A DNA stretch of 52,787 nucleotides from a virus, in the IMG/VR virus record IMGVR_UViG_3300033994_001553, positions 1-52,787 of that record, one strand, 5' to 3'. Positions 4,597 to 48,868 of this stretch are shown one piece after another (the stretch's first letter is position 1; every line of letters starts with the position of its first letter). Below the pieces are notes generated by a model. That model saw only the letters and a program-made list of their open reading frames with translations, did not search any database and was not told the DNA's origin. Position numbers and translations under genes: made by a program.

Positions 4597-4633
4597 TTGA
4601 AGTTCATTAAGAGATAAATAAAATAATTAGTAT

Positions 4634-4840
4634 ATGCAACATTCGGTAAAAGAAATTGCCAAAAGATACTCAGAATTGTCTGACCTCAGAAAAGATAAAA
4701 AAAGATTTGTTGAATCTAATTTTATCCAATTTGCAAAGGACAATCAACGTAAGTATACCCTTACTGAAAATGGGGATGACTTGATGGTTAGCACTTGGCA
4801 TTCAAATGACTTGATTGAAGATTACCGAAAAACGTTGTAA
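4634..4840 (+). CDS. Small basic protein, unknown
   Basis: 68 residues beginning MQHSVKEIAKRYSELSDLRK, with a positively charged helical N-terminal half and a mixed C-terminal half. It is transcribed from the promoter at 4566 and lies directly ahead of the tRNA-like genes. No family recognised. Confidence 0.7.
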   Translation: MQHSVKEIAKRYSELSDLRKDKKRFVESNFIQFAKDNQRKYTLTENGDDLMVSTWHSNDLIEDYRKTL

Positions 4841-4846
4841 AAAAAT

Positions 4847-4937
4847 AGTCAGGTGGACGTAATGAGGGAGGGACCCAAATCCGTAAGGTTGTCTAATCCG
4901 TCAAGAACGGTATCCGGTTCGAGTCCGGCCCTGACTA
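4847..4937 (+). tRNA. tRNA-like gene A of the AGTCAGG family
   Basis: Acceptor AGTCAGG/CCTGACT is followed by A. The T arm has CCGG-TTCGAGT-CCGG. CCGT-CAAGA-ACGG could be a class II variable arm. I cannot find a 5-bp, 7-nt anticodon arm with T33 in between. The acceptor sequence is shared with four other elements at 5130, 5467, 5750 and 5902. Confidence 0.5.
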
Positions 4938-4944
4938 CTAATAT

Positions 4945-5051
4945 GGGTACACTTATGGAAGGTGGAAACAAAACTTGTTAAACAAGAAGTGGGGTTACCG
5001 TATGTCTGATGGCCCCGTCAGATGGTTTGGGTTCGAGTCCCAGTGTATCCA
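4945..5051 (+). tRNA. Oversized tRNA-like gene, possibly Leu (TAA)
   Basis: Acceptor GGGTACA/TGTATCC with A73, and T arm TTGGG-TTCGAGT-CCCAG. At 107 nt it is far longer than normal. The hairpin CTTG-TTAAA-CAAG could carry anticodon TAA with T33, leaving a variable region of about 40 nt. A second hairpin TCTGA/TCAGA with loop TGGCCCCG competes as anticodon arm. Identity unresolved. Confidence 0.45.
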
Positions 5052-5070
5052 CAAAAAAATAAAAAAAGAT

Positions 5071-5115
5071 TTGGTGGAATGAAAAACTTACCATATCTTT
5101 GTTGAAGTTCTTTGA
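5071..5115 (+). promoter_or_regulatory. Host-type promoter followed by boxA-like element
   Basis: TTG 5071-5073 and TATCTTTG 5094-5101, spacing 20, then GTTCTTTGA at 5107-5115. The order promoter, boxA-like site, stable RNA matches rRNA leaders. It opens the run of tRNA-like genes and structured RNAs. Confidence 0.65.
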
Positions 5116-5129
5116 GAGATTAAAAACAT

Positions 5130-5212
5130 AGTCAGGTGGTGTAAGGGTAGACAAACACACGGTAAGGTACTAGAGACTAATTGAGTAACAGGTTCGAGTC
5201 CTGTTCTGACTA
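5130..5212 (+). tRNA. tRNA-like gene B of the AGTCAGG family
   Basis: Acceptor AGTCAGG/TCTGACT, A73, T arm ACAGG-TTCGAGT-CCTGT, and a Leu-type D arm (TGT-AAGGGTAG-ACA). The 34 nt between D and T arms do not fold into a normal anticodon arm. The only visible helix is TACT/AGTA. Resemblance to tRNA-Leu at 17131 suggests derivation from a leucine tRNA. Confidence 0.5.
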
Positions 5213-5218
5213 CTAAAG

Positions 5219-6863: not shown

Positions 6864-7463
6864 ATGAAAAAACTTTTATTTGTATTATTATTTATTCCTT
6901 CACACTTCTTTGGACAGTGTGATACTTTACCACTAACGATAACACACGATGGTAATGTGCTTGATATGTGTTCAGAGTTTAAGACACATAACTATTCTGT
7001 TGAGAATATAGACAATGTTGTTTATTACTGGACGGTTGATAGTGTAGGACAGGTTGAGTCCGATAATGATATTTCATTGACTTGGGATGATACCACTGAT
7101 AATCATTTGATTGAAGTGTATGGTGTGGATTTAAATGGGTGTAGTACTGACACGGCTTCTTTAACTATTACCACCACTATCTGTCATAAACTATACATGC
7201 CCAATTCGTTTTCACCTAACAACGATGGGTTGAATGATATATTTTCCTTCAAGGGAACCAATGTATTTAATCCACGATTGGAGATTTATACGCAGTGGGG
7301 TGAAATGGTTTGTGTTATTGAATCATCATCACAATATTGGACTGGTAATGTTAATAACAGTGGATACTACTGTGAGTCGGGTATATATACTTGGAAGATG
7401 TATTATCGTGATGAAAAAGGAACACCACATTACCAAAAAGGTTTTGTTAGTTTGGTAAGATAA
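6864..7463 (+). CDS. Secreted protein with type IX (CHU_C/gliding-type) C-terminal domain
   Basis: 199 residues. A lipid-free signal peptide (MKKLLFVLLFIPSHFFGQ, cleavage about residue 18) is followed by an Ig/PKD-like beta domain (residues 25-105). The C-terminal domain begins YMPNSFSPNNDGLNDIF and ends with a beta-rich tail (KGFVSLVR). SFSPNNDGxND plus the IYTQWGE and SGIYTWKM motifs are the hallmark of the gliding-motility-associated C-terminal domain, a type IX sorting signal that exports proteins across the Bacteroidota outer membrane. Seen: signal peptide and domain motifs. Inferred: the phage sends this protein to the host surface by the host machinery, perhaps to alter adsorption or superinfection. 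Confidence 0.88.
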   Translation: MKKLLFVLLFIPSHFFGQCDTLPLTITHDGNVLDMCSEFKTHNYSVENIDNVVYYWTVDSVGQVESDNDISLTWDDTTDNHLIEVYGVDLNGCSTDTASLTITTTICHKLYMPNSFSPNNDGLNDIFSFKGTNVFNPRLEIYTQWGEMVCVIESSSQYWTGNVNNSGYYCESGIYTWKMYYRDEKGTPHYQKGFVSLVR

Positions 7464-14032: not shown

Positions 14033-14932
14033 ATGAGGGATTTAATCAAAAAAATCATAAGAGAAGAAACAGAAGTTAAAGAGATGGGTCTCAGTATGGG
14101 TAAGCTACGAGCTTCCCAGCCAAAGAACTATCTTGTCAAATCTCTTATAGATAAAGAAAAGAGTGAAGAATCAAGAAGTGAGTTAAAGAAGATGGTTAAA
14201 AAATGTAATAACCTTTACTCCGAAATTGATAGTGAACTCCGAAATCTTAAATGGGAAGACATCAATTTTTATGAACCAAATAAGTTTTTTTATGTTATGT
14301 TACCAAAAAACATAACTAATAAAATGAAAGAGATGACTGAGTTGTATGAAGAATTAAATAAGAATGGTTATACAAACGGATTAAATCCTCTTAGTAAGAT
14401 TGCTCAAATGGCTGCTGATTACAGGGAGTTTATAGAAACAATATGGATTTACATGTACACTGACCAGCCAAGAAATAGAACTCACTTCCCGGTAGGACTA
14501 CCTAAATCATTACTTGGGTATAATCTCGGTGTTAAAATTTACAGGTCACTTCTTCATAAACTTGGATTTATACAATCAGCTGAAAATGCAACTAATGCGG
14601 TTCAGGAAGTTTTTAGACGATTATTAGAAATGCCGGATGTTAACGCTGTGGTGTATAATGATACTGTTTTATTGATTGAAGATGGATTACCAAAAAGTAA
14701 AGTAATTGAAATTGTAACTGATAGTATCTATGAAAGATACTTAACCAAGAAAAACACAAGAAAACTTGTTTTAAACAGAAGTATTATTGTTAGTAGTAAG
14801 TTATTAAAACTTATTGGGGAGACAAGGTTACTCAATATGATGTATGAGTTATTTTATAGTGCTAAAAAAGAAAATAGAGAACCATTTGAAAAAATTGGTT
14901 ATAAGAGCCCCAAGAGTGACGAACCTGAGTAA
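14033..14932 (+). CDS. Probable packaged protein with capsid-targeting-like N-terminus
   Basis: 299 residues, highly charged and helical. Opens MRDLIKKIIREET, a short amphipathic helix ending in hydrophobic-x-Glu, like the T4 internal-protein signal MKTYQEFIAE that is cut by the prohead protease. The rest shows no recognised domain. A region around residues 210-235 (VNAVVYNDTVLLIEDGLPK) is beta-rich. It starts a run of three plus-strand genes (14033, 14942, 15287) that all begin with such peptides. Function beyond that is unknown. Confidence 0.8.
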   Translation: MRDLIKKIIREETEVKEMGLSMGKLRASQPKNYLVKSLIDKEKSEESRSELKKMVKKCNNLYSEIDSELRNLKWEDINFYEPNKFFYVMLPKNITNKMKEMTELYEELNKNGYTNGLNPLSKIAQMAADYREFIETIWIYMYTDQPRNRTHFPVGLPKSLLGYNLGVKIYRSLLHKLGFIQSAENATNAVQEVFRRLLEMPDVNAVVYNDTVLLIEDGLPKSKVIEIVTDSIYERYLTKKNTRKLVLNRSIIVSSKLLKLIGETRLLNMMYELFYSAKKENREPFEKIGYKSPKSDEPE

Positions 14933-18870: not shown

Positions 18871-20025
18871 ATGGCTATCATATATAATAGTATTACTCCA
18901 AACAAAATTAAAATAGATTATACCACACAAGGGTTTCCAAATACCTTTAATTACGACTCAAATTATTTAAACATTAATACATGGTATTTTGGTATTGATG
19001 TTAATAGACCTTACGGACCTTCTTCAGGTACTGGATGGTATCAGGGGGTTGATGCTCGTACAATAGATGAAGCGACCTACACCATTTATTATACAGGAAC
19101 AACAATTGGTAATACAGGTAATGCCAATGACAAATATAGATGTGTTCAATATGACAACCAATCAGATGTTATAAACTTTGTTAATAATGTAACCGCAGGT
19201 TTTCCTACTTTTGGTTCATTACCGGATGCATTGAATTGGTTTAAAGATGATGGTTATACTAGAGGTGGTCTAGGTGAAATGGTCTGTGTTAATATGAATT
19301 ATCCTAATATACCAACATCAGGATTAACTTTTGGTGTCGATTCTGGGTTTGTTGCATCCTATCCATGGACAAACCCAACGTGGTATGATTTCGGAATGTC
19401 TACTATGAGTGGATTTTCAGGTAATTCAAGAATAATCCAACATTTTGACAACAGTTTATTTTTTGATTTTATAGATGATGGTTCCCCAACTGAATACTTT
19501 ACGTCATCAAAACAGGAAAACTTAGGACAAGATTTTACTGTAATATTTTGGGGTTCACCGGCAGCAGTTGCTGATACTAGAACTCATTCAGTATTTTCAG
19601 TTAGGTCAAATAATCGTTCAAACTATGTTGGTATTTACGATGATAAGTTTTCAATAACTTTTTATTTCACGGTTCGTGATACTACCGATGGTTTAAAAAC
19701 TAGACAAGGTGCTACCAATTACACTTCAGGTGTTTGGGCTCAATTCTCATATGTTTTTGAAACCAATAGTGGTGGAACAACGACAACTAGTTTTTATTAT
19801 AATGATAGTCTTGAAGAAACAAATGAAGAAAGTTATTTAGTTGAATCATGGAACTCGGATATTGGTGAAGGATGGGTTATTGGACAGCTTGCTGGTGCAA
19901 AATCAGTTACTGAAAACTATTTTGGTGGTATGGCAGTTGTATTGGTTTATGATAGAGCTCTCAGCGCAACTGAAATTGCTGACATATACCAAAACTATCT
20001 TGAAACAAGAACGTTATTTCAGTGA
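18871..20025 (+). CDS. LamG/concanavalin A-like lectin protein, probable virion protein
   Basis: 384 residues. The N-terminal 150 residues are beta-rich and Asn/Thr/Gly-heavy, as in fibre or capsid decoration proteins. Residues 170-380 form a LamG-type jelly roll: FDFIDDGSPTEYF, SVFSVRSNNRSNYVG, and the signature end FGGMAVVLVYDRALSATEI. No signal peptide. TACTTAT lies 4 nt before the ATG, a variant of the TATTTAT leaderless box. Glycan binding on the virion surface is inferred. Confidence 0.82.
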   Translation: MAIIYNSITPNKIKIDYTTQGFPNTFNYDSNYLNINTWYFGIDVNRPYGPSSGTGWYQGVDARTIDEATYTIYYTGTTIGNTGNANDKYRCVQYDNQSDVINFVNNVTAGFPTFGSLPDALNWFKDDGYTRGGLGEMVCVNMNYPNIPTSGLTFGVDSGFVASYPWTNPTWYDFGMSTMSGFSGNSRIIQHFDNSLFFDFIDDGSPTEYFTSSKQENLGQDFTVIFWGSPAAVADTRTHSVFSVRSNNRSNYVGIYDDKFSITFYFTVRDTTDGLKTRQGATNYTSGVWAQFSYVFETNSGGTTTTSFYYNDSLEETNEESYLVESWNSDIGEGWVIGQLAGAKSVTENYFGGMAVVLVYDRALSATEIADIYQNYLETRTLFQ

Positions 20026-22070: not shown

Positions 22071-23342
22071 ATGACGAAAAATACAAAAATCTATTTACTT
22101 TTTTCTATTTTAATAATGTCTGTATTCTTTTTGGTTAAAACATCTGTTTTACTTGAAATACAGGAATCAACAAGAGTTACACGTGGTATTGAATACATTT
22201 GTTTTATTTTGTTAATTCCTATATCAATATTAATGATTAAAGACTTTATCAAATCTAATAAAAATTCAATATCTAAAGAATCTGTAGATAAGTTAATTAA
22301 ATTAGAAAATGAACTTACTAATAGAATGACCGCTATCAATAAATCTAATGCGGTTATTGAATTTGATTTAGAAGGTAATATTATTTTTGCCAATGATTTG
22401 TTTATAAAAACTATGGGATATCCATCACAGGATGAAATAGTTGGAAAACATCACAGAATTTTTGTGGAAGATGATTATGAGAAAAGTGAGGATTATTGTC
22501 TTTTTTGGGAAAAATTAAGAAGTGGTGTATTATTTTCAGGGGAAATTGTTAGAGTTAAAAAAGATGGGTCTTTAGTTTATTTACAAGCGACCTACAATCC
22601 TATTTTTGATACTGATGGTAAGATTTATCGTGTTATGAAAATCGCTATTGATATCACGAATTCTTACGAACAGAAGAAAGAGATTGAAAGAAAGAATACA
22701 TACTTGGAACATGCTGCTAAGATATTGAGACACGATATGCATTCAGGTATTAATACCTATATACCAAGAGGTGTTAACTCGTTGGAGAGAAGATTAACTC
22801 AAGAAGATATTGTTAAACTTAAAATTGAGGCACCACTTAAAATGATTAAGGAAGGACTTAAGCATTCACAGAAAGTTTATAAAGGTGTTTATGAATTTAC
22901 CAATCTGGTAAAGAAAGATGTTGTTCTTAATAAAACTGAATTTAACATCAAGGACATTCTCAAGGACTATTTGTCCTCGACGGCATACATTAGTCAGGTT
23001 ATGTTGGATGATAACCTACCAACGATTGAAGTTAATGAACCATTGTTTTGTACAGCATTGGATAACCTAATTAGGAATGGTTTAAAATATAATGATTCAG
23101 ATACCAAGTTTGTTAAGATATACTCTGAAGGTGATATGATATTCATACAGGATAATGGTAGAGGTATTACCCAAGAAGATTTTAATTATTTATCAAAACC
23201 ATACACCAGAAAAGAAGGTCAAAAAGAATCGGGTACTGGTTTAGGATTGAATATCTGTGTTGCCATTTTAGAAGAACACGGATTTAAAATAACCTGTGAA
23301 AAAAATGAAACAGGAACTAAAATGAAAATCAAATTTAAATGA
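22071..23342 (+). CDS. Membrane sensor histidine kinase with PAS domain
   Basis: 423 residues. Two transmembrane helices (about 8-27 and 40-57) with a very short periplasmic loop, then a PAS domain (about 92-198, NAVIEFDLEGNIIFAND...YNPIFDTDGKIYRVM). The kinase core has H-box EHAAKILRHDMHSGIN (phospho-acceptor His221), N-box LDNLIRNGLKYND, G1 IQDNGRGI (Asp361) and G2 SGTGLGLNIC. All residues for autophosphorylation are present. The next gene overlaps by 4 nt. Its kinase core is nearly identical to that of the kinase at 23956, so both probably phosphorylate the receiver at 26010. Confidence 0.93.
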   Translation: MTKNTKIYLLFSILIMSVFFLVKTSVLLEIQESTRVTRGIEYICFILLIPISILMIKDFIKSNKNSISKESVDKLIKLENELTNRMTAINKSNAVIEFDLEGNIIFANDLFIKTMGYPSQDEIVGKHHRIFVEDDYEKSEDYCLFWEKLRSGVLFSGEIVRVKKDGSLVYLQATYNPIFDTDGKIYRVMKIAIDITNSYEQKKEIERKNTYLEHAAKILRHDMHSGINTYIPRGVNSLERRLTQEDIVKLKIEAPLKMIKEGLKHSQKVYKGVYEFTNLVKKDVVLNKTEFNIKDILKDYLSSTAYISQVMLDDNLPTIEVNEPLFCTALDNLIRNGLKYNDSDTKFVKIYSEGDMIFIQDNGRGITQEDFNYLSKPYTRKEGQKESGTGLGLNICVAILEEHGFKITCEKNETGTKMKIKFK

Positions 23343-23956
23343 AAACATTACTAACTTTTATTTTCTTAACAATTTCTTTGTTTGGGTTTAGTCAAATTAA
23401 ATACCCAATTCAAACAATCTATAGAGGTGACTCTGTTGTTATCCTATCTGTTAAACAATCTGTTGATATTAATAAAGCAATTGAAACACAAAGAAGGATT
23501 ATTAGAGAACAAGGTAAAAAAATCACATCCTTAAATAATAAGATAGATAGTTTAAATAACATTGTTGAAAATATACCTAACATGTTAGATAGTATCAAAT
23601 ATGTAGCAGATACGACATATAAATGGGCTGATGAATTGAATATGACTCTTTGGGAATACGCTACAAATGGAGCGTTCATATACACTATACCCCCATACAA
23701 CAAGTTATATTTTGTGAATTTAGATGATTACAATCTTTACACTCATGAATACGGAAAAATTCTTGTTTTTGAAAAAATGACTAAAAGTGAGTATGAAGAA
23801 TATAAAAAATTCAGAGAAGAGTTTGATATGCAGTTCGCACCAGCAACAAATTATTTTCACAATTTAAAGTTTCTTGATTTTAATGGTATAACTCGAAGAT
23901 ATGAATCATGGATTTGGAAAAATAAAAGTTTATTAAAAGAAGAATTAAAAAAGTAA
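23339..23956 (+). CDS. Periplasmic coiled-coil protein of the signalling operon
   Basis: 205 residues. Signal peptide MKTLLTFIFLTISLFGFSQ, cleavage near residue 19. Residues 40-85 form a coiled coil (IETQRRIIREQGKKITSLNN). The C-terminal part is aromatic and charged with no recognised domain. It overlaps both neighbours by a few bases, between two sensor kinases. A periplasmic input or partner protein for the second kinase is inferred. Confidence 0.82.
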   Translation: MKTLLTFIFLTISLFGFSQIKYPIQTIYRGDSVVILSVKQSVDINKAIETQRRIIREQGKKITSLNNKIDSLNNIVENIPNMLDSIKYVADTTYKWADELNMTLWEYATNGAFIYTIPPYNKLYFVNLDDYNLYTHEYGKILVFEKMTKSEYEEYKKFREEFDMQFAPATNYFHNLKFLDFNGITRRYESWIWKNKSLLKEELKK

Positions 23957-25284
23957 TGAAAAAGATAATATTATTGATTTTAGTAACACTCGTATCGACA
24001 GGTTTACACTCACAAAATTTGAATTACAACGATACATTAGTTGACGGAATTGACGTTTCATGGTCTAACGATAATTTACAGATTGATGGTGATACTAGTC
24101 AAGTTGCGGCTATGGATATACAAGAAATCGTTACAACTTGGATTCCACCTGAACCTGAACCAGTTGATGAAACTAAATTGTCTGAAAGTGATTTAGCAAG
24201 TATTGCTGAAGACTTACAGTTTTTAACTGACTTACCAAAATCGTATACTGATTTACCTAAAGAAGATTTAAAAAATGTATTAGTTCAAATTGATAACAAG
24301 ATTAATAAACTTACCGCAGAACGAGATTTATTATTAGCTCAAGCTATAAGAAATGAAGAACTTATAAAATCAAAAGAAAATACCATTACTTCGTTAAGTA
24401 AAGAAAAGAATATCATCGGTTTGACTTTGGAGACTGATGACTTAATGGATGAGAATGGAAATTTGATGACTGAAAAAACTGATTTGGAAAAACAAAGAGA
24501 GACCTTGAAGAAATACCTTTATGGTGCTTTAGGTGTTGTTATACTGTTTGTTTTAATATTGGCGGTTGTCTTACAAAGAAAGAGAATACAAGTACAGGAT
24601 GTTGAGATTGAACAACAGATTAGTGATATTGCTAAGAAGAATAGTTACTTGGAACACGCTGCAAGAATCATTAGACATGACATGCACTCAGGTATTAACA
24701 CATACATGCCAAGAGGTATTACATCATTAGAAAAAAGATTAACCGTTGAGGACATCCAAAGATTAAAGATTGAAGGGGCACTTAAGATGGTTAAAGAAGG
24801 ATTAAACCATACGCAAAAAGTTTATAAGAGTGTTTATGAGTTTACCAATCTTGTTAAACAAAATGTTGTGTTAAATAAATCTGTGGTTAATCTTAAAGAT
24901 TTGATTTGGAAATACATTTCACCAAATTCATATAGTTCACAGGTTGAGATATCTGACTTGGGTGATATGGAAGTGAATGAGACTTTATTCTGTAATGCGG
25001 TTGAGAACTTAATTAAGAATGGTTTATCATATAACGATAGTGAAGTTAAAAAAGTTAAGATATACAACGAAGAAGAATATTTAATAGTTGAGGATAACGG
25101 TAAAGGATTCTCACAAAAACAACTTGAAAAACATTTAACAAAATACTCAAAGAAGGCTGATGTCACTGGTGAAGAGAAGGGTCTTGGGTTGAATATATGT
25201 GTTGCGATATTAGAAGAACATGGTTTTAAATTGAGTTGTGAAAAAATTGAAGGTGGAACCAAAATGAAAATAAAAATAAAATAA
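23956..25284 (+). CDS. Membrane sensor histidine kinase with periplasmic coiled-coil sensor
   Basis: 442 residues. A signal peptide (cleavage about residue 20), a periplasmic region of about 165 residues with a proline-glutamate linker (PPEPEPV) and a long coiled coil, one transmembrane helix (about 188-207), then the kinase core. H-box EHAARIIRHDMHSGIN (His241), N-box VENLIKNGLSYND, G1 VEDNGKGF, G2 EKGLGLNIC. The layout resembles Bacteroidota kinases with periplasmic sensors. Core close to that of 22071 but the sensor is unrelated, so one output may serve two inputs. Confidence 0.92.
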   Translation: MKKIILLILVTLVSTGLHSQNLNYNDTLVDGIDVSWSNDNLQIDGDTSQVAAMDIQEIVTTWIPPEPEPVDETKLSESDLASIAEDLQFLTDLPKSYTDLPKEDLKNVLVQIDNKINKLTAERDLLLAQAIRNEELIKSKENTITSLSKEKNIIGLTLETDDLMDENGNLMTEKTDLEKQRETLKKYLYGALGVVILFVLILAVVLQRKRIQVQDVEIEQQISDIAKKNSYLEHAARIIRHDMHSGINTYMPRGITSLEKRLTVEDIQRLKIEGALKMVKEGLNHTQKVYKSVYEFTNLVKQNVVLNKSVVNLKDLIWKYISPNSYSSQVEISDLGDMEVNETLFCNAVENLIKNGLSYNDSEVKKVKIYNEEEYLIVEDNGKGFSQKQLEKHLTKYSKKADVTGEEKGLGLNICVAILEEHGFKLSCEKIEGGTKMKIKIK

Positions 25285-26009: not shown

Positions 26010-26441
26010 ATGATTGATTCAATTTTATTGGTTGATGATGAAGACCTTTTTCATCTAGTTTTTGAGGACTCTTGTTCATTACTTGACATTACATTGTCAT
26101 TAAGAAGTTTGAACAGTTCGGATGAAGCTGCTAAACTATTTGCTGGATGGCAAAAAGATACATCACAAAAACCTGAATGTGTGTTTGTGGATTTAAACAT
26201 TATAGGTTCATCCTTTGATGGTATTGAACTTATCCGTAAGATTAACTTTGAATATGGTAACCATGTAGTTATCGGTATCATATCTTCAAGTAACGAACCT
26301 GAAGAACAGGCTAAGGCAGTTCAGGCTGGTGCTCAGTTTTGGATTATCAAGTCGGATGACATTGAACCAAGACTTGAAGAGTTTAAGAAAGACTACGACG
26401 GATATAAGAACAGAACAAACCCTTTCAAAGTTTATAAATGA
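26010..26441 (+). CDS. Stand-alone response-regulator receiver protein
   Basis: 143 residues, a single receiver domain with no output domain. Acidic cluster at Asp9/Asp10/Glu11 (LLVDDED), phospho-acceptor Asp61 (VFVDLNI), Ser92/Ser93 (IISSSNEP) and Lys114 (WIIKSDD) complete the active site. It probably accepts phosphate from the kinases at 22071 and 23956. Lacking a DNA-binding domain, it is likely to act through protein contact, perhaps with the coiled-coil membrane protein whose gene overlaps it by 4 nt. Confidence 0.92.
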   Translation: MIDSILLVDDEDLFHLVFEDSCSLLDITLSLRSLNSSDEAAKLFAGWQKDTSQKPECVFVDLNIIGSSFDGIELIRKINFEYGNHVVIGIISSSNEPEEQAKAVQAGAQFWIIKSDDIEPRLEEFKKDYDGYKNRTNPFKVYK

Positions 26442-38347: not shown

Positions 38348-38360
38348 ATAAGTAACTGAT

Positions 38361-38531
38361 ATGAGAAGTAAAACGTTAGACAGAATCCTTAAAGAAATGG
38401 AGAACGACACTTGGCATGTTAAGTTAAGAAGGTGGTGGAGAGTGAGATTGTGGGTATGGACTTGTAGAACAAGATGGATTTGGGATTTAGAATATGAACG
38501 TAATATCTTTAGAAATAAGAAAAACAAATAA
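38361..38531 (+). CDS. 56-residue Arg/Trp-rich protein
   Basis: ATG 38361, TAA 38529-38531. Very rich in Trp and Arg (RRWWRVRLWVWTCRTRWIW), suggesting nucleic-acid or membrane contact. No family recognised. Confidence 0.62.
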   Translation: MRSKTLDRILKEMENDTWHVKLRRWWRVRLWVWTCRTRWIWDLEYERNIFRNKKNK

Positions 38532-38560
38532 AGTTACAGTTTTGGGTGTTGTTGAATTAA

Positions 38561-38608
38561 ATACGTAAAAATACGTATTGGGGGATTATGGAATTAGTTA
38601 TATATTTG
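38561..38608 (+). promoter_or_regulatory. Host-type promoter with twin TACGTA operator
   Basis: TTG 38578-38580 and TATATTTG 38601-38608, spacing 20. Two copies of ATACGTA (38561-38567 and 38571-38577), each centred on the palindrome TACGTA, lie directly upstream of and touching the -33 element, so repression or activation by a dimeric protein is likely. The leader repeats that of the 7490 promoter. It drives the cassette of small genes. Confidence 0.65.
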
Positions 38609-38638
38609 TAAAAGAAATAAAAACAAAACTAAACAACT

Positions 38639-38785
38639 ATGTTAGACACAATGATTTATATTTTATTATTCATGCTGGTAGTAATCTTTCCAGTGTCCTT
38701 TGTATTATACGTTGCTGTATGGACTCCTAAACAGAAGATGAAAGGTCATGCAGGTAGAGGTAAATGTAAATGTTGTAATAACTAA
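38639..38785 (+). CDS. 48-residue membrane peptide with Cys-rich tail
   Basis: ATG 38639, TAA 38783-38785. One hydrophobic helix (about 5-29), then a basic, cysteine-containing tail (GKCKCCNN). First gene of the cassette run. No family recognised. Confidence 0.65.
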   Translation: MLDTMIYILLFMLVVIFPVSFVLYVAVWTPKQKMKGHAGRGKCKCCNN

Positions 38786-38798
38786 AAAATAAATAACT

Positions 38799-38909
38799 AT
38801 GGACAGAAGAGAAGGAATGCCTGTAGAAGCATTAGGACAAATACTATTTGTTATACTCACAATTTGGGGAATAGCTTATGGAGTGTCTTGGCTAATTGAA
38901 TTAATCTAA
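38799..38909 (+). CDS. 36-residue membrane micropeptide
   Basis: ATG 38799, TAA 38907-38909. One hydrophobic helix (ILFVILTIWGIAYGVSWLI). Preceded by AAATAACT-ATG, the shared spacer of this cluster. Confidence 0.6.
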   Translation: MDRREGMPVEALGQILFVILTIWGIAYGVSWLIELI

Positions 38910-38921
38910 AACTAAATAACT

Positions 38922-39023
38922 ATGGAAAACACCGATTTAAATTCTCAAAGAATTATTCAAGCATTGCGTCAACCAACAAACGAAATTGTTGAAAGCATTT
39001 TAATTTCACTAATTACTAAATAA
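38922..39023 (+). CDS. 33-residue peptide
   Basis: ATG 38922, TAA 39021-39023. Amphipathic (IIQALRQPTNEIVESILISL). Preceded by ACTAAATAACT-ATG like its neighbours. Confidence 0.55.
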   Translation: MENTDLNSQRIIQALRQPTNEIVESILISLITK

Positions 39024-39025
39024 CT

Positions 39026-39631
39026 ATGAAAAAACTATTTGTACTAGCTATGGTAAGCCTTTTATGTTTACCTGTATTTTCTCAAACTTCTAACTATTAC
39101 ATTGAAATAGTTAACAATGACTTTAACAACGATAGTTGTGGAATTATAAATATGAGTATTGACCCTGCTGCTAATTATACAGCTTGTGGTGTAGTAGTAA
39201 ATGGGGTTGGTATTAAAAAAAGTGTAACATACCCTTTTACTATGACTGCTAATCACATATTCAATTTTACTCTACATTTTGAAACTACTTGTGGATGTGT
39301 CTATGATTTTATAATCTCAGATACAGTAACGTTTGTACCAAATACCACATATGCAAGAGTAATTTTTGCTGATGGGGATGATTGCAATGACTCAAGTACT
39401 TTTGTTCTAGGGACAGATGAATTAGAAATTACTACGGTTTTAACAATTTATCCTAGCCCAGCAACTGAACAGATAACTTTAAGTAGAATAGGTGATGTGT
39501 TAATATATTCATCTAATGGAAAGTTAGTTAAAAATGTTAGGAATGAGAAAATAATTGATGTTAGTGATTTACCAAGTGGGTTATATCTTGGATTCATTAA
39601 TGGGAAGAAGTTTAATTTTATTAAAAAGTAA
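39026..39631 (+). CDS. Secreted type IX cargo with Por-type sorting domain, paralogue 1
   Basis: 201 residues. Signal peptide MKKLFVLAMVSLLCLPVFSQ. A beta domain of about 110 residues with conserved cysteines (SCGIIN, ACGVV, TTCGCVYDF, DDCND). The C-terminal domain (about 140-201) has LTIYPSPATEQITLSRIG, then VLIYSSNGKLVK and DVSDLPSGLYLGF, the pattern of type A type IX sorting domains (Por secretion tail). About 60-65% identical by eye to 40528. The sorting domain directs export across the host outer membrane and usually anchoring. Probably coats or modifies the infected cell surface. Confidence 0.9.
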   Translation: MKKLFVLAMVSLLCLPVFSQTSNYYIEIVNNDFNNDSCGIINMSIDPAANYTACGVVVNGVGIKKSVTYPFTMTANHIFNFTLHFETTCGCVYDFIISDTVTFVPNTTYARVIFADGDDCNDSSTFVLGTDELEITTVLTIYPSPATEQITLSRIGDVLIYSSNGKLVKNVRNEKIIDVSDLPSGLYLGFINGKKFNFIKK

Positions 39632-39637
39632 ATAATT

Positions 39638-39790
39638 ATGGAAAAGAAAAAAACACTTGAAGATGCTCTTAAAAATTATGTGCAAGGTAAAGACACCGTT
39701 GCTAAAAATATACCTGTTTATTCTGAAAATGGGGAGAAACTATACTTTAATGAGCAAGGCTATTTAATCAAATTGTATCATGAAAACTAA
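39638..39790 (+). CDS. 50-residue protein, MEKK family
   Basis: ATG 39638, TAA 39788-39790. Opens MEKKKTLEDA like the 39797 and 40064 genes but the rest resembles 40316 (PVYSENGEKLYF against TVYSTNGNLIEH). No family recognised. Confidence 0.65.
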   Translation: MEKKKTLEDALKNYVQGKDTVAKNIPVYSENGEKLYFNEQGYLIKLYHEN

Positions 39791-39796
39791 ATAACT

Positions 39797-40057
39797 ATGG
39801 AAAAGAAACAAACTGCGGTTGAATGGTTGGTGGAACAACTCGATAAACTTGAATATGAGTATGATGTTGAAGGAATAAGCATATTAGATTTCGATAAAAG
39901 AAAAATAGAAATTGAAAACCAAGCCAAGCAAATGATGAAGGAGCAGATGAAAGATGTGTATCTAACTCACTGTGTTAAATCAGAGCGTTTGAGAAAAATC
40001 TTTGAGCAACAATTTGATGATTTTTACAACGAAACTTACGGACAAACTAAAAACTAA
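39797..40057 (+). CDS. MEKK-TAVEW family protein, paralogue 1
   Basis: 86 residues. MEKKQTAVEWLVEQLDKL...IENQAKQMMKEQ...FDDFYNETYG. Paralogue of the next gene. Helical. The same pattern occurs in many uncharacterised Bacteroidota phage proteins. Function unknown. Spacer AACTAAATAACT before ATG. Confidence 0.78.
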   Translation: MEKKQTAVEWLVEQLDKLEYEYDVEGISILDFDKRKIEIENQAKQMMKEQMKDVYLTHCVKSERLRKIFEQQFDDFYNETYGQTKN

Positions 40058-40063
40058 ATAACT

Positions 40064-40309
40064 ATGGAAAAGAAAGAAACTGCGGTTGAATATCTTGTAG
40101 AGCAATTATTTAAAATACACAACAATACTACTGATGTTAAAGAAATGAATAGCAAAAGTATTATTGAACAAGCCAAGCAAATGGAGAAGGAGCAACACGA
40201 AGAAACTTGGTTTAGTAGTAGAGATGAAGATATGGGTGATGAATTTAAGGTGGAGCAAAAGTCATTTGAGGACTACTACAACGAAACTTATGGAGAAACT
40301 AAAAACTAA
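40064..40309 (+). CDS. MEKK-TAVEW family protein, paralogue 2
   Basis: 81 residues. MEKKETAVEYLVEQLFKI...IIEQAKQMEKEQ...FEDYYNETYG, clearly a tandem duplicate of the preceding gene with a diverged centre. Spacer AACTAAATAACT before ATG. Function unknown. Confidence 0.78.
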   Translation: MEKKETAVEYLVEQLFKIHNNTTDVKEMNSKSIIEQAKQMEKEQHEETWFSSRDEDMGDEFKVEQKSFEDYYNETYGETKN

Positions 40310-40315
40310 ATAACT

Positions 40316-40516
40316 ATGGAAAACCTCACAGTTTATTCTACAAATGGTAATCTTATTGAACATTCAAAACCTATCGTTACTATTGAGACGGAAGTAGAAA
40401 TTGCAGGGCAAGGAGAACTACCAATTAAAATAATTGCAGATTTTACAGATATTCCTGAGCATAAGCATGAGCTGTTTTTTCAAGCATTCAAAATGATGTA
40501 TAATATTAAATTTTAA
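40316..40516 (+). CDS. Small protein, unknown
   Basis: 66 residues, beta-rich then helical (IPEHKHELFFQAFKMMYNI). Same AACTAAATAACT spacer. No family recognised. Confidence 0.7.
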   Translation: MENLTVYSTNGNLIEHSKPIVTIETEVEIAGQGELPIKIIADFTDIPEHKHELFFQAFKMMYNIKF

Positions 40517-40527
40517 ACTAAAAAACT

Positions 40528-41130
40528 ATGAAAAAACTATTTGTATTAGCTGTAGCAAGTCTTTTATGGCTTCCCGTATTTTCTCAAACAACATATTACA
40601 TTAATATTGTTAATAGTGACTTCAACAATGATAGTTGTGGAATCATTAACACCACAATTGACCCTCCTGGGGATTGGATAGCATGTGGTGTATTAGTAAA
40701 TGGGGTTGTGTTTCAAAAAAGTGTAACCTATTCGTATAACGTAACATCTGACCATATATTTAATTCTACTTTACACATTGAAACCACTTGTGGATGTGTC
40801 TATGATTTTACAATCACCGATACTGTGTTATTCGCATTGTTAAATAGCCATTATACTAGAATAATTTTCATTGATGGAAATGATTGCACTGATTATGGTA
40901 CAATTGTTTTAGGTGTGGATGAATTAACTAGTGATGCTTTAACAGTTTATCCAAATCCAGCAAATAGTCAAATAACTTTAAGTAAGATAGGTGATGTGTT
41001 AATATATTCATCTAATGGACGGTTGATTAAGACTATTAAAAATAAGAAGGTAATTGATGTTAGTGATTTACCAAGTGGGTTATATCTTGGGTTCATTAAT
41101 GGAGAGAAGTTTAACTTTATTAAAAACTAA
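40528..41130 (+). CDS. Secreted type IX cargo with Por-type sorting domain, paralogue 2
   Basis: 200 residues. Signal peptide MKKLFVLAVASLLWLPVFSQ, the same cysteine-containing domain as 39026, and a C-terminal LTVYPNPANSQITLSKIG sorting domain with VLIYSSNGRLIK and DVSDLPSGLYLGF. The sorting domain is the best conserved part between the two copies, while the exposed domain differs more, as expected if it faces selection outside the cell. Spacer ACTAAAAAACT before ATG. Confidence 0.9.
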   Translation: MKKLFVLAVASLLWLPVFSQTTYYINIVNSDFNNDSCGIINTTIDPPGDWIACGVLVNGVVFQKSVTYSYNVTSDHIFNSTLHIETTCGCVYDFTITDTVLFALLNSHYTRIIFIDGNDCTDYGTIVLGVDELTSDALTVYPNPANSQITLSKIGDVLIYSSNGRLIKTIKNKKVIDVSDLPSGLYLGFINGEKFNFIKN

Positions 41131-41136
41131 ATAACT

Positions 41137-41235
41137 ATGAATATTAAAAGAAAGATTTTAACATCAATTTTTAATTGGTTGGGAAAAAGATGGGATGACT
41201 ATAATGAATCATTCAAAAACGGATTTAATTATTAA
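41137..41235 (+). CDS. 32-residue basic peptide
   Basis: ATG 41137, TAA 41233-41235. Basic amphipathic start (NIKRKILTSIFNWLGKRW). Last gene with the AACTAAATAACT spacer. Confidence 0.55.
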   Translation: MNIKRKILTSIFNWLGKRWDDYNESFKNGFNY

Positions 41236-41240
41236 AAATT

Positions 41241-41531
41241 ATGAATAACGAAATTGAAATAAAACCAGTATCCGAAATGGAAGCTGACACAAGACGACTT
41301 TGTGAAATACGATTTGATTGTATGGTAACAATGCATGATGCTGCGTTTAAAAAGTATAAGGGAATGTGGGGTCAAGAAAACCAATCAAAGAAACCACAAT
41401 GGTTTAAGTCCAACACTACTCTCACATTAGAGTTTATTAAAGATGCTGAACCTCAACTTATAGGTGAGCACATCAAACAAATGTTTCATCAATTAGAACA
41501 AACAATAGAACAATATGAATCTGTCAGATAA
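41241..41531 (+). CDS. Helical protein, unknown, ahead of thyA
   Basis: 96 residues, no family recognised (EIRFDCMVTMHDAAFKKYKG). Its end overlaps the thyA start by 17 nt, implying coupled expression. Confidence 0.75.
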   Translation: MNNEIEIKPVSEMEADTRRLCEIRFDCMVTMHDAAFKKYKGMWGQENQSKKPQWFKSNTTLTLEFIKDAEPQLIGEHIKQMFHQLEQTIEQYESVR

Positions 41532-42345
41532 ATACTATTTACAGAACATTCAAAAAATTATGTCAGAAGGTTCTTGGGATGAAAATCCTAGACCAAAATA
41601 TTATGATGGAGTGACGGCTCATTCAAAATTCATCACAGGAGTTTTTGAAGAGTATGATATCTCAAAAGGAGAGTTCCCAATACCAACATTAAGAAATACT
41701 GCAATAAAAACAGGTATTAAAGAAATATTATGGATTTATCAAAAACAAACTTCATCATTACGAGTTGCTCGTGAAATGGGAATTAATTGGTGGGAAGATT
41801 GGAACGTAGGTGATGATACTATTGGTCAGAGATATGGAGCAACTATTGGTAGATATAATTTAATTGATAGATTATTAAAGGGTTTGATTGACGACCCATT
41901 TGGAAGAAGACATATAATCAATATGTTCCAATATCACGATTTGTTTGAAACAAATGGATTATACCCTTGTGCTTATGAAACATTGTGGTCAGTTAGAAAA
42001 GGTGACGATGGATTGATACTTGATATGACATTGATTCAGAGAAGTAATGATTTTATTACCGCTGGTTATATTAACAAAATACAATACACCGCACTTTTAA
42101 TGATGGTTGCAGGTCATTGTAACTATAAAGTTGGTAAGTTTTGTCATTTAGTTCAGAACCTACACATATATGATAGACATTTTGATGCGGTTGCCGAATT
42201 ATTAAACAAGGAGCCGTTAGACATCCAACCAAAAATAATTTTGAAAGAAAACAAAAACTTTTATGATTATACAATTGATGATTTTGAAATTGTTGGAATT
42301 GAAGGTATTACCAAAATAAATTCAAAATTAGAGTTAGCAATTTAA
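41515..42345 (+). CDS. thyA: Thymidylate synthase
   Basis: 276 residues, a full-length ThyA. Catalytic Cys152 in YPCAYETLWSVR, Arg-rich FGRRHIINMF, LIQRSNDFITAGYINKIQY (dUMP-binding RSxD) and LHIYDRH are all present. It methylates dUMP to dTMP with methylene-tetrahydrofolate. The active-site segment is PCAYETLW rather than the common PCHxxxQF, so the usual His after Cys is replaced. This variant occurs in a ThyA subgroup as far as I recall. An HNH endonuclease follows 44 nt downstream. Confidence 0.95.
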   Translation: MNLSDKYYLQNIQKIMSEGSWDENPRPKYYDGVTAHSKFITGVFEEYDISKGEFPIPTLRNTAIKTGIKEILWIYQKQTSSLRVAREMGINWWEDWNVGDDTIGQRYGATIGRYNLIDRLLKGLIDDPFGRRHIINMFQYHDLFETNGLYPCAYETLWSVRKGDDGLILDMTLIQRSNDFITAGYINKIQYTALLMMVAGHCNYKVGKFCHLVQNLHIYDRHFDAVAELLNKEPLDIQPKIILKENKNFYDYTIDDFEIVGIEGITKINSKLELAI

Positions 42346-42365
42346 GATTTCCGTTGGTTTCCATA

Positions 42366-42372
42366 TATTTAT
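42366..42372 (+). promoter_or_regulatory. TATTTAT box of the 42390 endonuclease
   Basis: TATTTAT lies 17 nt before the ATG at 42390, the long-leader arrangement seen for other homing endonucleases. Confidence 0.45.
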
Positions 42373-42389
42373 ATAATATACGGAAACCT

Positions 42390-43214
42390 ATGGATTATTT
42401 AAAAATTTACAATAGTTTAGTTGAGAAAGGAAAAAACAGAAAACTAACAGGTTACACTGAAACTCATCATATTATTCCTAAATGTGTCGGTGGGACTAAC
42501 GATAAATGGAATTTAGTTAAACTAACGGCGAGAGAACATTTTATATGTCACTTATTATTATGTGAAATTTACCCCGAAAATATGAAATTAAGATTCGCAT
42601 TATGGAATATGTGTAATGTTAAAAGAAACTATCAAAATAGATTTAAAGTTAACTCAAGATTATATGATTTAATTAGGAAAGAGTATTCAATAAATGTTTC
42701 AGGTGTTAACAATCCTAGATTTGGTAAAAAATTAACAGATGAACAAAAAAATCAAATCAGTTTGTCAAGGATTGGTAAATATGGAGGTGAAAAAAATTCA
42801 TTTTACGGTAAAAAACATAGTGAAAGAACTAAAGAAATATTAAGAAAAAAAAGTTCAGAAAAAAAACATACCGAAGAAGCTAAAGAAAAAATGTCAATCT
42901 CACATAAACATAAATTATGGTATTTTAATGACAATGGAAAACATTTACGAACATTCCCTGATGACCCAAGAATAATTAATGAAGGGTGGAAAAAAGGTAG
43001 AATTGGTGGTAAAGAACTATCAAGATTGGCGAATGAAAAAAGAAAAGAAAAATACTCAATTATTGAACCCCCAAAACCAAATTCAAAAAAGTGTGTCGTT
43101 GATGATTTGACTTTTGACTCAGCGGTTGAAGCTGCGAAACACTTTAATATCCCAGATAGTACTGTTAGAGACAGAATTAGAAATAAAAACTTCCCAAATT
43201 GGAGATGGGTTTGA
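42390..43214 (+). CDS. HNH homing endonuclease with NUMOD domains
   Basis: 274 residues from ATG 42390. HNH core TETHHIIPKCVGGTNDKWN then LTAREHFICHLLL (residues 27-59). The middle carries NUMOD3-type repeats (GVNNPRFGKKLTDEQKNQIS, GGEKNSFYGKKHSERTKEIL) and the C-terminus SAVEAAKHFNIPDSTVRDRI is a helix-turn-helix. It lies just after thyA, a gene frequently targeted by homing elements in phages. Lysine-rich, very AT-rich. Confidence 0.9.
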   Translation: MDYLKIYNSLVEKGKNRKLTGYTETHHIIPKCVGGTNDKWNLVKLTAREHFICHLLLCEIYPENMKLRFALWNMCNVKRNYQNRFKVNSRLYDLIRKEYSINVSGVNNPRFGKKLTDEQKNQISLSRIGKYGGEKNSFYGKKHSERTKEILRKKSSEKKHTEEAKEKMSISHKHKLWYFNDNGKHLRTFPDDPRIINEGWKKGRIGGKELSRLANEKRKEKYSIIEPPKPNSKKCVVDDLTFDSAVEAAKHFNIPDSTVRDRIRNKNFPNWRWV

Positions 43215-46201: not shown

Positions 46202-46945
46202 ATGATAATTTATTTAACAACTAATTTAATTAACGGTAAAAAATATGTTGGACTTGATATGAATAATGATAAGAATTATTTAGGGTCAGGTGTTCATATT
46301 AAACGTGCAATAAAAAAATATGGTAAAGAAAATTTCATAAAAGAAATTTTAGAGGTTTGTGATAATAGACAAGAGTTATTATTATGTGAAAAAAAATGGA
46401 TAGAAAACTTTAAAGCTGTTGAATCTAAAGAATTTTATAATGTTCATATCGGTGGTATTGGTGGTGACATTACACAATATATGGATGAATCTAAAATTAT
46501 TGAATGGAAACAAAATATTAGTAATGGTAAAAAGGGTAAAACTAAAGGAAAACCATTAACTGAACAAAATAAAAAAGGTATAAGTGAGTCATTGAGAAAA
46601 TATTATGATAATGGTGGTGTTGCCCCATTACAAGGTAAAAAAAGAGATGATGAAACTAAAAGAAAAATAAGTGAGTCTAATAAAGGTAAAGAATTTACTA
46701 AAGAACATTTAGAAAATTTAAAAGAATCATTTAAGGGAAGAGATTATAATGGTGAAAAAAATCCATTCTACGGTAAGGGACATATGATTTCAGGTGAAAA
46801 AAACCCAATGTACGGTAAAAGTTTTTATGATGTATGGGTTGAAAAATATGGTAAAGAAGTTGCCGATATAAAGAAAAAAGAATGGTTAGATAAAAAAAGA
46901 AAAAAAAATGGAACTGATTACAACAACAATAATGAAAAAATCTGA
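46202..46945 (+). CDS. GIY-YIG homing endonuclease with NUMOD3 repeats
   Basis: 247 residues. GIY-YIG domain: IIYLTTNLINGKKYVGLDMN, IKRAIKKYGKENFIKEIL, EKKWIENF. NUMOD3 repeats follow (KGKPLTEQNKKGISESLRKY, GEKNPFYGKGHMISGEKNPMYGKS). TATTTAT (46183-46189) lies 12 nt before the ATG. Its last 38 nt overlap the start of the thioesterase gene in another frame, so insertion was close to or at that gene's start. Confidence 0.9.
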   Translation: MIIYLTTNLINGKKYVGLDMNNDKNYLGSGVHIKRAIKKYGKENFIKEILEVCDNRQELLLCEKKWIENFKAVESKEFYNVHIGGIGGDITQYMDESKIIEWKQNISNGKKGKTKGKPLTEQNKKGISESLRKYYDNGGVAPLQGKKRDDETKRKISESNKGKEFTKEHLENLKESFKGRDYNGEKNPFYGKGHMISGEKNPMYGKSFYDVWVEKYGKEVADIKKKEWLDKKRKKNGTDYNNNNEKI

Positions 46946-47653: not shown

Positions 47654-47980
47654 ATGAAGTATGATTACTATGGTTTAAAGTCTAAAATAGACGATTTTTT
47701 GGATTTACATGATGAGGAAATTGTTAAACAAGGTTGGACAATAACATCTAAACCATGTGATGATTGTAAAGATTATGATATTAATTTAAGGTTTAGTGAT
47801 GTTAAATATTGTTACGAAACAACAACAGGTAGTAAAAGTTACAATTTAGATTATCTATTTGTTGAAAAGATAGATAAAAATAAACAGAACAAAACGGTTT
47901 ATAGTTCAGCTAAAAAGATGGGTTTAGAGATAAATGATAAAGGTTTAATTTATAATTTAAGCAATGTCAAACTTTCTTGA
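47654..47980 (+). CDS. Small protein, unknown
   Basis: 108 residues from ATG 47654. Contains CDDCKDYD, possibly metal-binding. The 3' end overlaps the converging lysozyme-like gene by 24 nt. No family recognised. Confidence 0.7.
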   Translation: MKYDYYGLKSKIDDFLDLHDEEIVKQGWTITSKPCDDCKDYDINLRFSDVKYCYETTTGSKSYNLDYLFVEKIDKNKQNKTVYSSAKKMGLEINDKGLIYNLSNVKLS

Positions 47981-48868
47981 ATATTTCACTGCATTGTCTC
48001 TATGACTTGATACTCCACCACCAGCGTTGATATCTGCAAAATATTCAGCGGCTTGTTTCTTTGTTTCAAATTTTGGAAATCCTGACTTTTTACCTTTTGT
48101 GAAGAACATAATAGCCACTTGAGCTGCGGTAAATGGGTTATTAACTTCTTCAGGATTACCAACTAAATCTTTACCGATTAGACCACCATATTTTCTATAG
48201 TTCCCCATACCTGTTAACTGATTAAATCCTCTACCTCTATATTTGTATCCATCATCGTCGGCAGTTCCATTCTTACCATTACCAACAGTATTGGCGTATA
48301 TTAAATTATAAAACTTTTTATCATCTTGTTTAAGTTGATTTATTTCAGAATCTGAAAGATGAGAAACTCTTTTCCCAAAAAGACTTCTTATTCTACCAAC
48401 ACCTGTATTAGAATAAGATGTTTCTGATTTTGGTATGTAATTACTTTCTTTACCAATTACGGATAATATACCAATTTGAGCCATTGGGTCTGTAATACCA
48501 AAATCATTCATGGCGTCAACCAATAAATCAATGTTTCTTGCTTTTTTTCCTGAAAATTTGTGAATTAATTTACCTGAAAAATTATCTTCATTTCCGTATG
48601 TTAAATCTTCAAGTTTGGCATCTTGAAGTTTATCTTTAAGATATTTTTCTTCCTCACCTGTTAAATCTTCTTTATTATTTGTGATGTTATCAATAATTTT
48701 ACTTACATCTGTTGTACCGAAAGTGTCTTCCGCGAACTTTTTAACTGCTTGACCAATCTCAGTTTGTTTTAAATAATCAACTGCGTCGTCTAAAAAACCT
48801 TCATTTAAATTATATAATTTTCTGATGTCATTTTTTTCTTGTTCTGAAATAATAAATCTTTTACTCAT
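47957..48868 (-). CDS. GH19-type lysozyme/chitinase domain with packaged-protein N-terminus
   Basis: 303 residues. Opens MSKRFIISEQEKNDIRKLYNLNE, one of the capsid-targeting-like peptides. The catalytic domain (about 112-300) has IGKESNY with the proton-donor Glu141 and YRGRGFNQLTGMGNYRKYG, the GH19 endolysin signature. It cleaves cell-wall glycan. The N-terminal 100 residues are helical and acidic. No signal peptide, so it acts as an endolysin after holin action or, given the N-terminus, as an injected or virion-borne lysozyme. TATTTAT lies 15 nt upstream. Confidence 0.88.
   Translation of the reverse strand: MSKRFIISEQEKNDIRKLYNLNEGFLDDAVDYLKQTEIGQAVKKFAEDTFGTTDVSKIIDNITNNKEDLTGEEEKYLKDKLQDAKLEDLTYGNEDNFSGKLIHKFSGKKARNIDLLVDAMNDFGITDPMAQIGILSVIGKESNYIPKSETSYSNTGVGRIRSLFGKRVSHLSDSEINQLKQDDKKFYNLIYANTVGNGKNGTADDDGYKYRGRGFNQLTGMGNYRKYGGLIGKDLVGNPEEVNNPFTAAQVAIMFFTKGKKSGFPKFETKKQAAEYFADINAGGGVSSHRDNAVKYSRKFDIA

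Follow-up and report, generated by a model that had tools for sequence, protein, structure and literature searches.

A putative operator-controlled array of accessory gene cassettes in a Bacteroidota phage, with a recurrent linker as probable translation start and recombination seam

The stretch of DNA analysed here, which we call the window, comprises the 52,787 nt of IMG/VR record IMGVR_UViG_3300033994_001553 (labels such as G001 or L131 denote other viral records with which it was compared), and the feature of interest is an array of ten consecutive small genes on its plus strand, each preceded by nearly the same spacer, here termed the linker (AAAACTAAATAACT). All of the data are metagenome contigs, for the most part fragments. 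The linker-preceded ATG codons lie between 38639 and 41137, and the 15-mer that each of them closes departs from the linker sequence at 0 to 2 positions. An earlier note on this DNA had described ten genes joined by a near-constant spacer ending at the start codon; the ten genes were borne out, although the first begins at 38639 and not at 38799.

The first cassette (38639..38785) follows linker 1 (AACTAAACAACT, 38627..38638) and encodes a 48 amino acid membrane peptide (..KMKGHAGRGKCKCCNN) with homologues in the arrays of G004, G005 and G008. Behind it lie peptides of 36 amino acids with a hydrophobic segment (38799..38909) and of 33 amino acids (38922..39023), a 201 amino acid protein with a sorting domain of the type IX secretion system (T9SS; 39026..39631), and a 50 amino acid product whose start region resembles a cassette of L059 (39638..39790). 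Two members of a family that we name TAV, after its TAV-MEKEQ-YYNETYG motifs, come next (39797..40057 and 40064..40309), followed by a 66 amino acid product (40316..40516), a second T9SS-type protein of 200 amino acids (40528..41130), and a final linker-preceded cassette of 32 amino acids (41137..41235). The right flank opens with a gene at 41241..41531 (plus strand) that is kept in G007 and L131 beyond the variable region, and continues with thyA (41515-42345).

The 15-mer AACTAAATAACTATG occurs in five exact copies, all on the plus strand, from 38910 to 41139, and in ten copies when up to 2 mismatches are allowed, these being at the gene starts 38639, 38799, 38922, 39026, 39638, 39797, 40064, 40316, 40528 and 41137. 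Placement directly at an ATG thus holds for 10/10 array sites, and the only other 2-mismatch matches in the window are at 19828 and 27736. With up to 3 mismatches the whole window holds 19 linker matches against 6.3 expected, a number reached by none of 100 shuffles. Mean pairwise identity over positions -16 to -1 of the ten array genes is 0.84, versus 0.37 for other runs of ten window genes and a maximum of 0.54 among 20,000 random tens, and the information content upstream of the array ATGs is 25.8 bits versus 7.0 bits for the remaining window genes. The linker is about 14-15 bp long, asymmetric and, on inspection of the sequence, devoid of an attC-like dyad; its consensus contains no G and no Shine-Dalgarno core. 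The stop codon of the upstream gene falls sometimes within the spacer (..AAAAAC TAA ATAACT ATG) and sometimes ahead of it, which indicates that it is the DNA of the spacer that is kept, independently of any one reading frame. As had been suggested, the linker has the makings of an A-rich translation signal: it carries A at -3 and -6 in 10/10 copies and at -12 and -13 in 9/10, and these are the positions at which A raises translation in Flavobacterium johnsoniae (PMC6847099). That match to the Flavobacterium start context would explain how any cassette placed behind a linker comes to be translated.

Comparison with related phages revealed variable cassettes between fixed flanks, and not the fixed gene order and content that would have spoken against a cassette array. 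One relative, G007 (IMG/VR 3300027712_000195), is syntenic with window positions 25139-45691, its left flank being 75-97% identical. It retains gene 38361 together with the promoter (38355-38641, 96.5%) as well as the right flank (41233-41519, 83%), but between these flanks it carries different cassettes, 40316 being the only linker-preceded cassette shared in place (91.6% nucleotide identity over 40297-40534). In L131, whose flanking proteins are 92% and 78% identical, the gap is filled by one unrelated gene behind another linker (TAGAAAGTTATG). The sister records of the thyA group (L133, L134, L150 and L164) have arrays directly before thyA, with the linker AAAACAATAGAAAGTT-ATG and a different family of tandem paralogues of the MSKEQEKLVDEAY type. 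Taken together, the differences in G007, L131 and the thyA sisters provide the support that the earlier note had looked for in relatives. Misassembly is an unlikely source of the array, which recurs in IMG/VR 3300047094_001556 and 3300042463_000825 with identical or nearly identical proteins. Free-standing genes resembling HNH and GIY-YIG homing endonucleases (42354-43214 and 46202-46945) lie next to the variable array, and genes of this kind also directly follow thyA in L131, L134, L147 and L152; breaks made by such enzymes might stimulate recombination there.

Arrays with the same linker were found well beyond these relatives. If the window and G007 are taken as lineage I, three further lineages (II-IV) carry them, plus one more record, counted as V (L108/G016). 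The terminase of lineage II (G001, G002, G006 and L012) is nearest to those of Maribacter, elemo and Cellulophaga phages and an environmental Caudoviricetes record; that of lineage III (G004, of 119.6 kb, with G010, G011 and G013) is nearest to those of Flavobacterium phage FPSV-S29 and of cr1_1 and cr55_1, uncultured phages from human feces that are taken to be crAss-like; and that of lineage IV (G005, G008, G009 and others) is 49% identical to the terminase of Flavobacterium phage 11b. Since lineages II and III have the same terminase and portal PHROGs, they are distant relatives. A search of five records of 251-344 kb plus G018 gave PF03237 terminase matches in four large thyA relatives, one of them below the cut-off, which is read as a sign of T4-type phages; the window fragment itself had no PF03237 match. 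DNA matches of the window to lineages II, III and IV lie almost exclusively in array-type segments, the exception being 0.6 kb in G013 (window 4621-5213). Of 40 cassette families, 12 are found in at least two lineages, with their order differing, and cassettes common to different lineages reach 100% DNA identity. A DNA search of the array region among INPHARED phages returned no match. From the phage relatives and the T9SS signals, we infer that the hosts are Bacteroidota of the class Flavobacteriia.

Where such exchanged segments end is informative. Where two lineages share blocks with 88% identity or more, 114/176 block ends (65%) lie no more than 12 bp from a linker or a TAV anchor (described below), as opposed to 18% for random nearby positions. 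The T9SS cassette at 39026 is the clearest case, with 98.1% nucleotide identity over 633 bp (39011-39643), from linker to linker, to the unrelated phage G001, whose remaining matches to the window are all short cassette-type segments. Because exchanged blocks end in this way, the linkers look like seams for the swapping of accessory genes, in keeping with the proposal that the spacer acts as a homology for gene gain, loss and duplication. The half-gene shuffling, the T9SS signals and the exchange across lineages all go beyond what had been proposed.

The TAV genes extend this pattern into the coding sequence. Members related to 39797 and 40064, which are adjacent and 47% identical, were confirmed in at least 198 IMG/VR stretches by a search that made no use of the mid anchor (see below), and none was confirmed in 84,980 bacterial and archaeal genomes; one member matches, at 40% identity, a relative carried by Flavobacterium elemo phages within INPHARED, where another member had no match. 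The predicted structure is helical (pLDDT 82.6) with no significant fold match. Each gene is made up of two halves that can be exchanged, with a 24-bp DNA anchor between them (GCCAAGCAAATGATGAAGGAGCAG at 39923..39946 in the first gene, GCCAAGCAAATGGAGAAGGAGCAA at 40172..40195 in the second, both on the plus strand), and a tail anchor with the following linker (TACAACGAAACTTAT...AACTAAATAACTATG, 40277..40318, plus strand) belongs to the recurrent, near-identical blocks of 37-50 bp found across phages. When protein pairs alike in one half were judged in the other, 8 were concordant and 32 discordant, and one protein of G004 combines the N-half of 39797 with the C-half of 40064, both genes of the window. 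At the junction, QAKQMEKEQ is encoded by DNA (GCCAAGCAAATGGAGAAGGAGCAG) that retains codons rare in TAV genes. In 39 members with both variable halves less than 45% identical to all others, CAG was used in 35/39 cases in the mid anchor versus 2/75 elsewhere in the same genes, GCC in 30/36 versus 8/102, and GAG in 70/78 versus 42/184. These rare codons persist behind other linkers, and the mid anchor includes GGAG and AAGGAG motifs. Its DNA has either been selected, or one version of it has been spread by repeated crossing-over at this site. In L102, L219 and L268 TAV members stand behind GGAGGT Shine-Dalgarno-like linkers, which is odd for Bacteroidota, a group that hardly uses Shine-Dalgarno sequences.

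The housekeeping promoter of Bacteroidota has the consensus TTTG...TAnnTTTG. Upstream of the first cassette, an operator-like dyad (TACGTAAAAATACGTA, TACGT-N6-ACGTA; 38562..38577, plus strand) is followed on the same strand by a candidate promoter of this type (38578..38608), made up of TTG (38578-38580), 20 bp, and TATATTTG (38601-38608). The full layout, TACGTA-N4-TACGTA-TTG-N20-TATATTTG at 38562-38608, fits the housekeeping consensus, with the dyad adjoining the upstream element. The twin TACGTA of the earlier note is thereby confirmed in place, and the putative operator and promoter are kept in relatives, the dyad being unchanged in G007, G006 and L012. Twin TACGTA on its own does not stand out in the window when up to 2 mismatches are allowed (2 matches versus 1.6 expected). 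The extended pattern TACGTAN4TACGTATTG-N17..24-TAnnTTTG, however, occurs in only 10 IMG/VR stretches; the layout is alike in all copies, and each lies directly upstream of a small gene, mostly from known families of the pool. G001 and G002 have TACGC-N6-GCGTA as their dyad, so that both arms are altered and the symmetry is kept, which suggests that the symmetry is functional. Matches to sigma-70 promoters were at the level of shuffles, the one terminator-like match lies within a gene, and an Rfam search gave nothing over threshold.

As to the cargo, the two long paralogues at 39026 and 40528, which are 70% identical, score above the curated Pfam and NCBIfam cut-offs for the T9SS type A sorting domain (PF18962 at 3.1e-9 and TIGR04183 at 1.7e-6 for the former, 4.6e-10 and 3.2e-8 for the latter), and their N-terminus (MKKLFVLAMVSLLCLPVFSQ) looks like a signal peptide, as judged by eye only. 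They thus appear to be tagged for export to the surface of the host cell. Their N-domain belongs to no recognisable family, an AlphaFold model was poor (pLDDT 49), there was no match among INPHARED phages, and the 84,980 bacterial and archaeal genomes gave a single match, to the sorting domain. Both paralogue pairs that had been called tandem are real, but four genes separate this one, so that only the TAV pair is strictly tandem. The suggestion of surface or anti-defence cargo stands for its first half, through the sorting domains in two cassettes; no recognisable anti-defence domain was found in any cassette, and a PHROGs search assigned the cassettes no function. The cargo may serve in host takeover or cell-surface modification, in the exclusion of other phages, or in anti-defence. 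Far from the array, at 6864-7463 (plus strand), lies a third apparent T9SS substrate, with a CHU_C domain (PF13585, 3.4e-13) and a PKD-like stretch.

We consider it probable, at roughly 0.78, that this is an operator-controlled accessory array whose linker is both a translation start and a seam for homologous recombination. The array would comprise accessory genes of a large Bacteroidota phage, transcribed from the single operator-controlled promoter at 38562-38608, and its unit would be a small gene plus its linker, the latter acting as a strong translation start of the non-Shine-Dalgarno kind. Together with the neighbouring conserved gene ends, a linker would offer 15-50 bp of homology, and recombination of a RecA-like or RecT-like kind, between linkers and between the internal TAV/NETYG anchors, could gain, lose, duplicate and exchange cassettes and half-genes between lineages that probably meet by co-infecting shared hosts. 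For these changes, homologous recombination at the linkers and anchors is the likeliest mechanism. Exact pairing requires 23-27 bp for Redbeta and 31-34 bp for RecA (PMC3945230), lengths fitted by the 24-bp anchor and by the 37-50 bp of linker plus gene ends. RecT is present in lineage II (G001 and G006; E 5e-39 to 9e-39), RecA-like matches were seen in the large lineage I relatives G018, G021 and G022 (1/3 over the cut-off), and a search for ERF found none. Several points weigh on the other side. The window fragment has no RecA, RecT or ERF match; the 15-bp linker alone is shorter than the pairing lengths and would need adjoining homology or relaxed pairing; some exchanges carry several cassettes as one block, so that not every linker is a crossover; the blocks and TAV members counted are not independent, owing to shared ancestry; and some of the TAV members were collected by way of the family's start and end anchors.

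Three other explanations were weighed. That the spacer is no more than a signal for translation initiation, convergent or copied, with shuffling occurring elsewhere or by illegitimate recombination, seems unlikely to us: the A residues at -3, -6, -12 and -13 are indeed Bacteroidota initiation determinants, and the 15-mer is found as single copies in many phage contigs while other phages use other linkers, but C at -10, T at -9 and T at -1 are nearly invariant though initiation does not need them, and exchanged blocks also end at internal anchors, which are no start sites. Somewhat less improbable is that the anchors are kept for another function at the DNA or RNA level, such as an internal GGAGAAGGAG translation or regulatory element, with recombination as a by-product. 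The GGAG and AAGGAG motifs of the mid anchor, and its rare codons kept even in phages with other linkers, would agree with this; that exchange boundaries fall at each of three separate anchors per gene, and that these codons are absent from the relative in the isolated Flavobacterium phage elemo (AIEKNQ), would not.

The array also recalls an integron, in that a single promoter is followed by small promoterless cassettes with a repeated joint and a pool spanning several lineages. Site-specific recombination of this kind at the linkers is nonetheless very improbable and was rejected, because searches of 10 records from carriers or relatives (one of them 257 kb long, though most are fragments) turned up neither a tyrosine nor a serine recombinase, the tyrosine integrase family PF00589 likewise having no match in these 10, because the asymmetric linker has no attC-like dyad, and because exchange also takes place inside genes, at the mid anchor. 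Beyond the reading of the linker as start and seam, we would entertain, at distinctly less than even odds, an integrase-free exchange network in which T4-type, crAss-like and siphovirus-like phages of Bacteroidota draw on a common pool, linker and anchor DNA being kept for recombination and small proteins being built from interchangeable N- and C-modules, a renewable stock of variants against host defences or co-infecting phages.

Two features elsewhere in the window deserve mention. Predicted products at 14033, 14942, 15287, 47957-48868 (minus strand), 50091, 52095 and 52439 have N-termini like MKKIIxLTESDLxRIVKRVIxE, ending in [LI]xE; many such proteins occur in G018, where a rough N-terminal motif matches 12 N-termini versus 2 in residues 41-70, and these peptides resemble the protease-cleaved N-termini that target T4 internal proteins to the capsid. 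As read from the sequence, 22071-25284 holds a pair of histidine-kinase-like genes, of which one has a PAS-like region, and a response-regulator-like gene comes after them at 26010, an unusual set in a phage.

The promoter early stem-loops (PeSLs) of T4-type phages, reportedly described by Arbiol in 2010 and Comeau in 2014 (see also PMC4503421), invite comparison. They resemble the linkers in being repeated intergenic elements thought to drive modular shuffling of small phage genes, but differ in bringing a promoter and a stem-loop to each gap. The linkers contain neither, and a PeSL-like interpretation was therefore rejected. The interlinked genes of the lambda ninR region are likewise small, with a short conserved start sequence, Shine-Dalgarno based, as a possible homology; they are not known to have a comparable cross-lineage pool. 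As far as the literature was searched, no description was found of the compact array, the cross-lineage pool, half-gene shuffling at DNA-conserved anchors or the shared operator-promoter.

The nearest published feature is the Start-Associated Sequences (SAS/ESAS) of cluster K mycobacteriophages, SAS being an asymmetric 13 bp sequence in 11-19 copies directly upstream of the starts of some genes of different families, for which an aid to translation initiation and possibly recombination were proposed (PMC3203893). The window linker shares the position immediately upstream of the start codons of a gene subset. It differs in lacking both the Shine-Dalgarno core of the SAS consensus (GGGATAGGAGCCC) and a genome-wide spread, in its sequence and host, and in forming a compact array with internal anchors and exchange between unrelated lineages. 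T9SS type A domains have been reported in phage proteins at variable genome positions, in Cryophage (PMC7468147) and in BACON phages (PMC6949934), whereas the T9SS proteins of the window are small, linker-bounded cassettes common to two unrelated phages, so that apparent substrates of host secretion move as cassettes. The linker and anchors offer a search handle for accessory genes in Bacteroidota phages, and the upkeep of accessory gene repertoires by phages becomes directly testable. Finally, recent exchange between phage lineages is thought to be rare, and De Paepe et al. found no mosaics of more than 90% identity between virulent E. coli phages and other phages (PMC3945230); here cassettes with 90-100% DNA identity are common to T4-type, crAss-like and siphovirus-like phages, and the seams are still visible.

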